Below are positions 32,202 to 37,113 of a stretch of DNA of 44,186 nt, in pieces; the first letter of the stretch is position 1; the number at the start of each line of letters is the position of its first letter. The translations under genes were made by a program, and so were the position numbers. The DNA comes from Chloroflexota bacterium (GTDB lineage: Bacteria > Chloroflexota > Anaerolineae > JAAEKA01): the NCBI GenBank assembly GCA_034717495.1, contig JAYELL010000037.1, forward strand, positions 1-44,186, given 5' to 3'. The notes under the pieces are model-generated. The model saw only the letters and a program-made list of their open reading frames with translations. It did not search any database and was not told where the DNA came from.

Positions 32202-32230
32202 TTGCAATTCGATCTGTTCTATGGTACAAT
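32202..32230 (+). promoter_or_regulatory. Predicted sigma-70-type promoter of nrdR
   Basis: TTGCAA (32202-32207) and TACAAT (32225-32230) are separated by 17 bp, and the start is expected near 32237. It would drive nrdR and probably the following genes, with a leader of about 255 nt. Confidence 0.75.
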
Positions 32231-32247: not shown

Positions 32248-32292
32248 CTACAATATCTAGTGTCTGCCCGATGTCCAAGCACAACATAGTGT
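32248..32292 (+). promoter_or_regulatory. Candidate pair of NrdR boxes
   Basis: The 16-mer at 32248-32263 matches the published NrdR box consensus (ACACWATATATWGTGT) at 13 positions by my count. A weaker copy at 32277-32292 matches at 11. They are 29 bp apart start to start, near the roughly three-turn spacing (31-32 bp) seen for paired NrdR boxes but not exact. They lie just downstream of the predicted start, which suits repression by NrdR. From 32293 to the nrdR start no further element is recognisable. Confidence 0.55.
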
Positions 32293-32493
32293 GATTTACC
32301 GGGCAGAGTTCCACAGCCTTGACACCGTTCTTCCCATCCAATGCCAAGGAGCCTGCGCCCATAAGTCCCATGTGCTTTCCAGCGGTCGATCTGATTTCAG
32401 GAGGCGTCCGCTGCCCGTTTTTTTCGAAAGCACAGGTCAGGCGTGGAGCACAGTTCTAATGGCTCGCGGCCATACTCGAGTTTCAGTTAGATA

Positions 32494-32940
32494 ATGATTT
32501 GTCCACACTGCGGTGATCTCAATTCTCGTGTTGTTGATACCCGGTCCACCGGCGACGGCATTCGCCGAAGGCGCGAATGTCAGATATGTCACCGACGGTT
32601 TACCACTTACGAGAATGTTGCAGCGTCGCTCTTGATCGTGAAAAGTAATGGCCAGCGGGAGCCCTATGACCGCCAGAAGCTCATGCATGGGATTTTGGTG
32701 GCGTGCGCCAAGCGGCCAATCTCCCAGGTCGCCATCGAAGACATGGTGGACTCCATCGAGGATGGGCTGGCTCGCCAGGGCAGGGCAGAGGTCAAGAGCG
32801 ATGTGGTCGGAACTCTGGTGCTGGATCATTTACAAAGACTGGATGCCATGGCGTACATTCGATTTGCCATGGTTTATCTTCAAATGAAGGATCTCGAGGC
32901 GCTACAGGAGCATATTGGTCGTTTGCTCCTGTCTCGTTAG
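32494..32940 (+). CDS. nrdR: Ribonucleotide reductase repressor NrdR
   Basis: NrdR is a zinc-ribbon/ATP-cone repressor that senses ATP and dATP and shuts down ribonucleotide reductase genes. The 148-aa product begins MICPHCGD. It has the zinc ligands C3, C6, C29 and C32, the basic IRRRREC and RFTTYE motifs, and an ATP-cone (about 47-137) starting IVKSNGQREPYDRQKLMHGI. Length is standard. No clear Shine-Dalgarno precedes the ATG. It is followed by a two-gene signalling module and then nrdJ, its likely target. Confidence 0.96.
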   Translation: MICPHCGDLNSRVVDTRSTGDGIRRRRECQICHRRFTTYENVAASLLIVKSNGQREPYDRQKLMHGILVACAKRPISQVAIEDMVDSIEDGLARQGRAEVKSDVVGTLVLDHLQRLDAMAYIRFAMVYLQMKDLEALQEHIGRLLLSR

Positions 32941-32956
32941 CGCCTGATATACCGCC

Positions 32957-33805
32957 ATGCGTCTTGTTTTGGCGGCTGAAGATGGGCTGAACGTCGTATC
33001 CTGTGATCGCCTGGTGGCCCGTCTTGCTCAGGAAAAGGCCATCTCGGCGCCTGAAATCACCATCGATCTTCGGTCCGCAGCCTTTGTTGATCCCTTCGGC
33101 GCCGCGTTCCTGGTGCTGATTGTCCGGCAAATTGCGTCCCGCGTCCCGCGGCTGGTCTGTGTACTGCCGATGGCTGAACGAGCCCAACGATCCGTGGTGC
33201 GAATGGGCCTTGTACGATTGCTTGGTCAGGTTGCCGAAGTGCGAAACCTGCCATCCAGCCGGGATCACTTTGGCCAGGGAATTACGTTACCTTTGAGCGC
33301 GATTCGCACTCGAGTTGATGTCAAGAGCTTGCTCGAATTTTTTATCGAACAAGCCAGACAAAAACTCGGTTACGATCTGAGCGATGTTCTGGATGCGACC
33401 AAGGTCGTTTCGGAACTCTGCTACAATGTGGTGGATCATAGCGGAAGTGAAGGACTGGCAGTTGCCCAGGTTGCCCAGGATCGACGAGGGCAGCGATTCG
33501 TTTCTCTGGCAGTGGTCGATCCCGGTGTCGGGATCAGGGCCAGCCTCGCAAGGCGCTTTCCCGAGGCTGCTGAATGGCAACACGGGGAAGCGATCGATCG
33601 GGCTCTGGGTGGCCTGAGCAGCCGGCCCAAGGGTGGTGGCGTGGGCCTGCGTAGCGTCGAGACTGTGGTGCGACGCTACGGCGGTCGCCTGACCATTCGC
33701 TCCGGTGATGATCGATTGCTGATTTCTGCGGAACGACGAGCACGGATCATATCGACAAGCGAGTTTTACGGTACCCAGGTCGGAATTAGTTTTAGCCAGA
33801 AATAG
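32957..33805 (+). CDS. STAS-like / HATPase (anti-sigma-type kinase) protein
   Basis: A 282-aa soluble protein with two parts. Residues about 1-98 look STAS-like: EITIDLRSAAFVDPFGAAFL sits where anti-sigma-factor antagonists have their D-S-S-G loop. Here it reads DPFG, so the usual phosphorylated serine is missing. Residues about 118-280 are a GHKL/HATPase_c domain: N-box E153-x3-N157 in SELCYNVVDHSG, G1 box DPGVGI (188-193), G2 box GGGVGLRSV (226-234). No transmembrane helix or receiver is visible. It begins 16 bp after nrdR and is followed 54 bp later by a STAS/wHTH gene. A partner-switching role with that neighbour is inferred from domain logic; the target is unknown. Confidence 0.75.
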   Translation: MRLVLAAEDGLNVVSCDRLVARLAQEKAISAPEITIDLRSAAFVDPFGAAFLVLIVRQIASRVPRLVCVLPMAERAQRSVVRMGLVRLLGQVAEVRNLPSSRDHFGQGITLPLSAIRTRVDVKSLLEFFIEQARQKLGYDLSDVLDATKVVSELCYNVVDHSGSEGLAVAQVAQDRRGQRFVSLAVVDPGVGIRASLARRFPEAAEWQHGEAIDRALGGLSSRPKGGGVGLRSVETVVRRYGGRLTIRSGDDRLLISAERRARIISTSEFYGTQVGISFSQK

Positions 33806-33859
33806 TTACCGTCGGGCGGTGGACAGACCGTCAACACATCAACTTAATGGTGGAGAGCG

Positions 33860-34396
33860 ATGCCTTTGCAGGAAATACAGGTTGAATTGGTAGGCCCAAT
33901 TTTGGGCGGCCGCGATAGCGAGACCAAGGATAGTCTGCTGGCCAAGTTGACAGCACTGCCAGCGAATTCTTTGCTGGTTCTGGACTGCAACAACGTGCAG
34001 TTTATGGACTACTCTTGGGCCGACGAAGTCGTGGCAGGTCTGTTGGAAGCTTCTCGAAAGGCGCGTTCACCACGCTTTGTGGTGGTACGCAGCCCCACAG
34101 AGAGCGTGCGAGAAAGTATTGCCGCGGCAGTTTCCATTCATGGATTGACCTGCGTACAGGTTGATGGCGGTGGCACTCCCACAGTCTTGGGCAATCTGAG
34201 CCCTGCGCTACTCAAGACCTACAATCTGGCCGTGGTCCGGGGACAGATAAGTGCCCAGGACCTGCCCGATTCGCTGTCGCCAAGTACCAAGAGCAATCGA
34301 CTGAAGGAATTGGAGCGTAGACGACTCCTCTATCGGGTAGGTGAAGAGGTCATCGATGGAGGGGGCAGGCGCTTTATTTACGAGCCTGTGCGTTAA
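33860..34396 (+). CDS. STAS-like / winged-helix DNA-binding protein
   Basis: A 178-aa protein. The N-terminal half (about 1-100) has LVLDCNNVQFMDYSWADEVV, which fits the DUF4325/STAS-like family (a D-x-S-x-A-D-E signature). S52 is in the loop where SpoIIAA-type proteins are phosphorylated. The C-terminal 55 residues (about 120-178) look like a winged helix: SPSTKSNRLKELERRRLLYRV is the recognition-helix region, followed by a wing ending GGGRRFIYEPV. GGAG lies five nt before the ATG. Paired with the preceding HATPase protein it suggests a switch that controls transcription, with the HATPase acting on this protein. This is inference; no experimental relative is known to me. Confidence 0.7.
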   Translation: MPLQEIQVELVGPILGGRDSETKDSLLAKLTALPANSLLVLDCNNVQFMDYSWADEVVAGLLEASRKARSPRFVVVRSPTESVRESIAAAVSIHGLTCVQVDGGGTPTVLGNLSPALLKTYNLAVVRGQISAQDLPDSLSPSTKSNRLKELERRRLLYRVGEEVIDGGGRRFIYEPVR

Positions 34397-34524: not shown

Positions 34525-34539
34525 CCGGAGGATATGATT

Positions 34540-37113
34540 GTGAGTACTGTTCCAACCGTCGACGCTCAAACATCGCAGCACACGTCACCGACTGCTTGGT
34601 TTGACAATATGGATCGACCTATCAGAATCGGGCCGAATGGGCTGGATGTGTTGCAACGCCGTTATATCCGAAAAGGGCCCGATGGGGAACCGATTGAGAC
34701 GGTATCTGAGATGTTTTGGCGGGTGGCCTACAACGTGGCGTTACCCGAGGAAACCTGGGGCGAGCAACCAGAGAGCATTGCAGGCAGCTTCTATGATCTG
34801 TTGACAGATCTACGGTTTTTCCCCAATTCTCCCACGTTCACCGGCGCAGGAACCCCGTTGGGGCAATTGGCTGCCTGTTTTGTCCTGGCCATCGACGACG
34901 ACATGGGCAAGGACTCGGCTGAAGGCATTTTCAGCACGCTTCGCACTGCGGCATTGATCCAGCAGACCGGTGGCGGTAACGGGTTCAGCTTCAGCCGTCT
35001 TCGGCCCAAAGGTGATCCTGTGAACAGCAGCGCCGGCGTGGCAAGCGGGCCTGTTGGCTTCCTCAAGGTATATGATGCCGCGTTTGGCGAGATTGCTCAG
35101 GGTGGTACGCGACGCGGCGCCAATATGGGTGTGCTGCGCATTGACCATCCTGATATCGAAGAATTCATCGCAGCCAAGGCGGAAGAAGGCTCTGTGACCA
35201 ACTTCAATATTTCGGTCGGTGTCACCGATGTCTTCATGGAAGCCGTGCAATCGGATGGGGATTTCGATCTGGTGAGTCCTCGCTCTGCTGTCCCGATCCG
35301 CTCGGTGCGGGCACGGGACCTTTTCGCTAAGATCGTCCATCATGCCTACCGCAACGGGGAGCCAGGGGTGCTTTTTGTTGACGCCGCCAACCGCAGTAAT
35401 CCGGTCCCTCACCTGTACGAGCTCGAGGCCACAAACCCGTGTGGCGAGCAGTGGCTGGGACCTTATGAAAACTGTTGCCTGGGTTCTGTCAATCTTTCGG
35501 AACACGTTACCCGGGAGGGGCAGGTTGATTGGGATAAACTGGAGCAGACGGTCCTGTTGGCCACCCGCTTTCTCGATGATGTTGTCAGTGCGAATAAATA
35601 TGTGCCGGCGGTGTCAGCATTGAAGGAGGCTGCCCACCGGGTTCGACGCATTGGGTTAGGCATTATGGGCCTCGCGGACATGATGTATAAGCTTCATGTA
35701 CGCTATGGATCCGACGAATCGATCGACCTGGCAGGGCAGGCCATGGAGTTTGTACGTTTTCATGCCATGCGAGCCTCCATCGATCTGGCCAGGGAGCGGG
35801 GAGCATTTCCGGCAATCACCGGATCAATCTACGATCCCGAGAACCTTCAATGGCAACCACCCACACCGCTCAAGCCCTACACCTCCAGCTATGGACGCCC
35901 GGAATTGGATTGGGGTGCCATTGAAGCCGGCATCAAGAGCCACGGCATTCGTAATGGGGCACAGACCACTGTGGCTCCTACGGGGACCATTGGCACTGTG
36001 ACGGGCTGTGAAGGTTATGGTTGTGAGCCGGTATTTGCACTGGCCTACACCCGCTACGTCAAAGAGCAACAGGGTGACGTTCCCCTGACCTATGTGAGCC
36101 CTCTCTTCATGGCTGCACTGGACGGGGCGGGGCTTTTGGCTGAAGAGCGCCAGGAAATCATCGATAGCATTCTTCTGAACGGTACCTGCCAGCAGGTCGA
36201 AGGGCTTCCGGAGGATCTGCGAAACACCTTTGTCGTCAGCCAGGACGTCACTCCTGCCGAGCACGTGATGATGCAGGCAGCGCTGCAACGATTTGTGGAC
36301 AATAGCATCTCCAAGACCTGTAATTTTTCACCGGATGCGGTCCCCCAGGATGTTGAAGCTGCCTATATGATGGCGTGGGAGTTGGGTTGTAAGGGATTGA
36401 CCGTCTACGTGACCGGCAGCCGATCCGACGTGGTTCTCGAGATCAATGCAACGGCGCAACGCAGGGCACTTTCCCAATCGGAGCAGAACATGAACGGTCA
36501 GGCCTCGCTGGACGAGACGCTAAATGCGCTGCCTCACGAGTACGATTCTCCGGTTGGCCTGGAAGGGGATGCACCAGAATCATCGAACGCTGTAGAACTG
36601 TTGCCGTACGATGCCAAACGGCCGCGGCCACGGCGCTTGCATGGCAGTACCTACCGGCGGTTGACCCCTCTGGGCACCGCGTATGTCACGGTCAACGACA
36701 CCGAGGACAATGAACCCTTCGAGGTGTTCATGAATGTGGGTAAGGCCGGCTCTGATGTGGCCGCCGTCAGCGAGGCCCTGGGTCGGCTAATAAGCCTGAT
36801 CCTGCGCATCCCAAGTTCGCTCACGCCCACTGAACGTATACAACAGGTGGTTTATCAGATGAACGGCATCGGCGGTGGACGCCATCTCGGCTTTGGCCCT
36901 CATCGGGTTCGCAGCCTTCCCGATGCCATCGCTCAGGTTCTGGAAGATCATTTGTCGGAAGCGCCGCCACCCCCGCCTGAACCCGCTGGTGAACAGCTGA
37001 CCTTGCCCATGCCACGCCAGATCGGAGATCTCTGTCCCGACTGTGGGAACAGTACTCTTCTGAATGTGGAGGGCTGCCGCAAGTGTCACGTGTGCGGATA
37101 CAGCGAATGCTAG
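34540..37113 (+). CDS. nrdJ: Class II (B12-dependent) ribonucleotide reductase
   Basis: Reduces ribonucleotides to deoxyribonucleotides using adenosylcobalamin to make the active-site radical, so it works with or without oxygen. The roughly 857-aa protein has [11 protein letters not shown] near 96 and the first redox cysteine in QLAACFVL (near 113). It also has [15 protein letters not shown], the active-site NPCGE (near 300) and [21 protein letters not shown]. The C-terminal region carries a TSCPD-like domain and a zinc-type Cys cluster, CPDCG...[12 protein letters not shown]. No N-terminal ATP-cone is visible, so dATP control may rest on NrdR. Start: ATG at 34534 is only two nt after GGAGG, while GTG at 34540 is eight nt away and is preferred. 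Confidence 0.96.

Follow-up and report, generated by a model that had tools for sequence, protein, structure and literature searches.

Between nrdR, the gene for the ribonucleotide reductase (RNR) repressor, and nrdJ, for an adenosylcobalamin-dependent (class II) RNR, a Chloroflexota contig (JAYELL010000037.1, assembly GCA_034717495.1; the 44,186 nt analyzed are called the window here) carries two additional genes, designated A and B (Table 1). Both open reading frames and both flanking genes had been recognized from the sequence alone, and these assignments are confirmed. What are a STAS-kinase protein and a STAS-winged-helix protein doing in an RNR operon? On balance, they are probably a kinase-repressor pair of the CapK/CapS kind that has been captured into the nrdR-nrdJ operon, with nrdJ as presumed target: B would repress it, and A would relieve the repression.

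Table 1. Features of the nrdR-nrdJ region, in window coordinates.
Feature	Position	Strand	Basis or remarks
Sigma-70-like promoter, TTGCAA-17-TACAAT, extended -10	32202..32230	+	Upstream of nrdR
NrdR box 1	32248..32263	+	Exact core match; paired, 31-bp step
NrdR box 2	32279..32294	+	31 bp from box 1
nrdR, RNR repressor	32494..32940	+	TIGR00244, 165.9 bits, above cut-off
A, CapK-like STAS-GHKL kinase without HTH	32957..33805	+	Domain search, residues, model
A boxes: N-box E153/N157/H161; G1 D188-G190-G192; G2 G227-G230			Sequence comparison
B, CapS-like STAS-winged-helix protein	33860..34396	+	S52 phosphoacceptor candidate; wing G168-G169
Candidate B operator, TTCA-N11-TTAA	34425..34443	+	B-nrdJ gap; dyad comparison and held-out loci
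nrdJ, adenosylcobalamin-dependent (class II) RNR	34534..37113	+	TIGR02504, 629 bits, above cut-off

A (282 aa; one copy in the window genome) had been described as a STAS-like domain joined to an intact HATPase, with the STAS serine lost, and this was borne out: HATPase_c passes the Pfam cut-off (E 5e-9) with the N, G1, and G2 boxes intact, STAS is a match below cut-off (STAS_2, E 0.025), and direct reading gives the STAS motif as FVDPFGAA, without the usual serine. Missed at that stage was that the phosphorylatable serine lost from the STAS domain of A is kept in that of B, as S52. The structural model of A is confident (mean pLDDT 81.9); its top Foldseek match is a response regulator of Leptospira (E 1e-4), ahead of STAS and GHKL proteins. 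As a separate observation, A and a relative in another Chloroflexota family (L061, 4946-5917) give weak matches (E down to 9e-8) to the N-terminal part of the PADLOC DrmA model, which hints that DISARM DrmA might have a comparable STAS-HATPase region.

B (178 aa) likewise has STAS matches below the Pfam cut-off (STAS_2, E 0.0022; STAS, E 0.0069), and the same search yielded neither an HTH nor DUF4325; the proposed label “DUF4325-type” suits several relatives of B, but fits B itself only loosely. The winged helix proposed for B is supported because relatives match HTH_24 above cut-off, the best PDB match of the B profile is the solved Vibrio cholerae CapS (9z72, E 0.022), and residues 106-178 of the predicted model align with ArsR-type winged helices (Z 9.9). 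That model has a mean pLDDT of 68.7, with block means of 75-89 from residue 121 onward; residues 2-102 align with RsbV (Z 10.2). The fold library searched with B extends to 2026-04-08, and solved CapS entries were not among the matches. Searches of PDB sequences by phmmer with A and B, and of the PDB with the A profile, returned nothing useful, and PADLOC assigned B to no defence family.

The closest described pair is CapK/CapS (Controller of associated pathways; EMBO J, June 2026; PMC13373217), which according to that paper places immune and stress operons under the control of DNA damage. In that account the GHKL kinase CapK, activated by single-stranded DNA (ssDNA), phosphorylates CapS, a STAS-winged-helix repressor, at S54; phosphorylation separates the two CapS subunits, and the neighboring operon is released. 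CapK W68 is needed for activation by ssDNA, and deletion of the CapK HTH has no effect (PMC13373217). The two-gene layout, at first taken for a new one, is thus already published and widespread, and the kind of mechanism has been known since June 2026 (PMC13373217). The RNR setting and its conservation are new, as is the TTCA-N10/11-TGAA site described below. The operons named in the main text of PMC13373217 are immune ones, with no nrd operon among them, and ribonucleotide, nrdR and Chloroflex go unmentioned there. The literature search turned up no paper joining nrdR, nrdJ, and STAS, and only PMC13373217 for CapK with CapS.

The accession given for Enterobacter roggenkampii CapS (WP_001567865.1; PMC13373217) is that of the B gene of one of the plasmid loci collected here (L127), so residues could be compared directly. 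Profile-profile alignment (hhalign) of A with CapK (98.1%, E 9.4e-14, 221 columns) and of B with CapS (96.2%, E 2.4e-9, 155 columns) supports homology of both proteins. An alignment was made of 26 A and 21 B proteins picked from the loci examined, leaving out the frame-broken B of G034 and, as same-genus copies, A and B of G003 and B of G004 (where A is split). CapS S54 corresponds to B S52, a serine in 21/21 B proteins, and the catalytic N218 of CapK to A N157, an asparagine in 26/26 A proteins. Of the CapS DNA contacts, K151, G169, and G170 are kept as K149, G168, and G169 in B; N145 corresponds to T143 by MAFFT and faces a gap by hhalign. The column of CapK W68 holds G10 in A, in a region where the alignment is weak and which hhalign leaves uncovered. 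The N-terminal HTH of CapK is missing from A, which begins at the STAS domain (282 aa vs. 368). In the tree, the window A forms its own clade with those of G001, G002, G005, and G034 (100/100), separate from a CapK clade of six plasmid sequences (100/99); because A lacks the HTH and the tryptophan and falls outside the latter, the pair is called CapKS-like rather than CapKS.

The original proposal that the kinase acts directly on a DNA-binding protein thereby gains a precedent: the logic would be that of CapK/CapS (PMC13373217), with serine and catalytic asparagine both kept, and by this analogy A probably phosphorylates B. A could instead hold B by binding, in RsbW/SpoIIAB-style partner switching that involves a phosphatase or a further STAS protein, and B might even activate nrdJ. 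The STAS domain of B does align best with RsbV, A has a STAS domain of its own, and the sign of regulation by B is one we infer; CapS, however, is a repressor that phosphorylation releases (PMC13373217), and the flanking genes identified include none for a sigma factor, which makes such switching unlikely beside phosphorylation of a repressor.

The promoter upstream of nrdR has 9/12 matches, with TG before the second hexamer, and aligned upstream regions show its -10 region to be conserved. Boxes were sought with what we take to be the NrdR consensus: the window has four core matches, against 0.88 expected, and tandem boxes with a 31-bp step lie upstream of nrdR in 7/7 loci with the pair (0/500 shuffles each) and, among the best-scoring loci, in 19/23 relatives without it (at most 3/300 shuffles). 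Candidate NrdR boxes in the B-nrdJ gap were at chance level in all seven loci and were discarded.

B is found in all six genomes of the order examined, and outside the family only in G034, among 100 genomes searched (its own and relatives); a single-protein scan of genome contigs found no relative, and a profile scan found five loci. The order nrdR-pair-RNR, whose conservation had been raised as a question, holds in 7/7 genomes with the pair (the six of the order plus G034). It is contiguous in five, namely the window, G001, G002, and G005, where the last gene is nrdJ, and G034; in G003 and G004 the locus is cut by contig ends, consistent with nrdR-A-B-nrdJ. In G034 the gene after the pair encodes an RTPR-like RNR with an ATP cone, not orthologous to the window nrdJ (25% over 281 alignment columns), and the linkage has therefore outlived a change of target gene. 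The B gene of G034 is frame-broken, in an assembly that contains Ns, and a PF02867 search of this genome gave nothing at threshold. In each of G001 to G005, nrdJ is the sole PF02867 gene found; the window genome has a second on another contig (C1). Intein-like insertions were noted in nrdJ of G003 (L033, 4040-9067) and G004 (L035, 93-3767), with matches to intein models and split RNR matches; the window nrdJ has none.

For comparison with relatives lacking the pair, the best-scoring 30 nrdR loci were taken (7 with the pair, 23 without), out of the 52 genomes, of 60, that gave a match. In 20 of these 23, nrdR is followed within 1.5 kb by nrdJ (about 1.3 kb away in two); within that stretch nrdJ was missed in the other three (L115, L117, and L119), two of them short. 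The pair was therefore inserted into an older nrdR-nrdJ unit. Two points temper the weight of its position: conservation within the order represents a single ancestral insertion event, which counts against the favored explanation, and several of the genomes also conserve other operon neighbors (ftsZ and a radical SAM gene). Comparisons inside genus g3 give dN/dS values of 0.06-0.12 for B, 0.04-0.06 for nrdR, and roughly 0.2 for A, whose more distant counterparts, like those of the other genes, approach saturation; by these values B is under strong purifying selection.

A shared inverted repeat, which it had also been suggested to seek upstream of loci with the pair, is present between B and nrdJ as a candidate operator. 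TTCA-N11-TGAA is the sole dyad with 4-bp arms (spacer 0-14) common to the B-nrdJ gaps of G002 to G005; G001 has it exactly, any such shared dyad arising in 7/2000 shuffles, and the window has a version with one change at the equivalent place (15/2000 shuffles within 8 bp). Spacings of 10 (PMC13373217) and 11 (Caldilineales) were fixed before held-out loci were examined. The held-out set was enlarged stepwise, from four Chloroflexota loci (these two spacings only), along with an exact-form scan of eight plasmid loci, to 13 and then 16. Within 150 bp after the B stop codon, the strict motif (spacer 10-11) occurs in 4/16 held-out B loci (G251, G183b, Sphingobium, and Cytobacillus) against 0.14 expected (P 5.7e-6), is missing in the other 12, and occurs in 0/22 of each of two sets of coding control stretches. 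A looser form, TTMA-N10/11-TKAA, is found in 13/22 loci overall, counting the near-identical Vibrio atlanticus and V. gigantis twice, and in 7/16 held-out loci against 0.90 expected, with 1/22 and 0/22 in the controls. The dyad is absent in G034, the closest outside relative, and the B-nrdJ gap of the window has no sigma-70-like promoter match.

Of the two CapK/CapS palindromes, the wide one (TTAA-N10-TTAA, which separates capS from its target) is absent from the window in exact form and present there as the related TTCA-N11-TTAA; the narrow one (TTAA-N-TTAA, which separates capK from capS) was not found in the 54-bp A-B gap, which has one lone TTAA. The same kind of scan did recover both published sites, TTAA-N10-TTAA and TTAAATTAA, in L127, an E. 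roggenkampii-type locus that served as positive control. Inverted repeats with arms GCTTCAC/GTGAAGC and ACTTC/GAAGT lie in the A-B gaps of two g3 genomes (L036, 3678-3867; L035, 4400-4518) and may be a second B site.

Plasmids of Nostoc, Enterobacter, Citrobacter, Sphingobium, Acinetobacter, Vibrio, and Cytobacillus carry related pairs, in several cases directly upstream of multiubiquitin/ThiF operons. On a Vibrio gigantis plasmid (L133, 1-6648) the pair comes before small genes and an operon for type I restriction-modification. The B-like genes of Pseudomonas Leaf58 (L130, 5001-5573) and Acinetobacter TGL-Y2 (L129, 5037-5552) have no A-like gene annotated immediately before them. Within the Chloroflexota, A-B lies upstream of a ThiF-domain gene in another family (G183b, L061, 4946-10058), and TTCA-N10-TGAA follows B, so that a CapS-like protein may control a ubiquitin-like operon there; in G251 (L062, 1-6128), A-B is followed by TTCA-N11-TGAA and four co-directional ORFs without Pfam match. 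Two phage records were matched by tblastn, although a viral contig scan with the A profile gave no match. In Marinitoga phage MPV1 and Gordonia phage Phishy (L135, 2480-3833; L134, 2462-3313), A-like kinases lie near integrase genes, followed in MPV1 by a STAS-like protein of 123 aa in which the serine is conserved. A tight nrdR-nrdJ-A-B operon was found in a genome of another class (G126, L063, 4845-9319). It was set aside as independent proof of an nrd link, because the winged helix is missing from its B and the pair occurs in just 1/11 genomes of its family.

Might the window pair, then, be a passenger, a mobile CapKS-like module that regulates only itself and hitchhikes in the nrd operon? 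Its relatives on plasmids, in phages, and near integrases would fit, as would the sporadic G126 arrangement. Retention in all seven genomes, strong purifying selection on B, the adjoining RNR of another type in G034, and the placement of the candidate operator before nrdJ rather than before A all argue otherwise, and this origin seems quite improbable.

Under the CapKS-like scheme that we infer, a B dimer would bind the dyad and hold back the RNR gene; activated A would phosphorylate B at S52, the phosphorylated dimer would fall apart, and nrdJ transcription would rise. The nrdR promoter, repressed by NrdR at high dATP, would also transcribe A and B, so that RNR would have two inputs: nucleotide level via NrdR and a second signal via A. 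The pair would probably thereby control an essential housekeeping enzyme. The likeliest guess for the second signal is replication stress or ssDNA, but with W68 missing, activation by ssDNA is not carried over from CapK to A. Of the originally suggested role in deoxynucleotide or DNA-damage control, the damage-sensing part finds no support here, because A does not conserve the ssDNA-stacking tryptophan of CapK. A broader proposal is tentative, and somewhat doubtful: that domestication of a damage-responsive defence-type switch gave RNR a second control, independent of SOS, with TTCA-N10/11-TGAA as the general operator of the CapS-like family outside its enterobacterial members. Replication or DNA damage would then activate A, A would phosphorylate B, and dNTP supply would rise, which would parallel in bacteria the control of RNR by checkpoint kinases in eukaryotes. 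The pair suggests a link between phospho-control and RNR in bacteria, and a vertically kept relative in an essential dNTP-supply operon suggests that the CapK/CapS module is a general stress switch. The conserved dyad offers a route to the targets of other CapS-like proteins and a cheap, concrete binding test.

Among known systems, CapK/CapS shares with the window a kinase gene directly before a STAS-winged-helix gene, both upstream of a presumed target; the catalytic asparagine, the phosphoserine, two wing glycines, and the equivalent of K151; and a spaced dyad between second gene and target. It differs in that neither the N-terminal HTH nor W68 is present in A, which branches outside the CapK clade; in its half-sites, TTAA/TTAA as against TTCA/TTAA in the window, where there is no TTAA palindrome between the two genes; and in its target, an immune operon rather than a chromosomal RNR gene. 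VapK/VapS/VapC, as described in PMC13373217, shares an HTH-less STAS-GHKL kinase and a STAS protein with a conserved Ser/Thr. The absence of an HTH from A, as from VapK, could suggest a toxin-antitoxin remnant that has lost its toxin, but B has a DNA-binding winged helix instead of the short VapS tail, and the next gene encodes an RNR, with no PIN-domain nuclease (VapC) beside the pair: gene content largely refutes this derivation, which is very improbable. SpoIIAB/SpoIIAA and RsbW/RsbV share the GHKL kinase and a STAS substrate with conserved serine, and the modeled STAS domain of B superposes on both SpoIIAA and RsbV; in the window, however, the STAS substrate carries the output domain as a fusion, and no sigma-factor gene is among the flanking ones identified. 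Streptomyces coelicolor nrdRJ (PMC9110341), finally, is an RNR operon under NrdR repression: it has nrdR and a class II nrdJ together behind tandem boxes with the same 31-bp step (GC positions 9/18 and 40/49), whereas in the window two regulatory genes sit between them.
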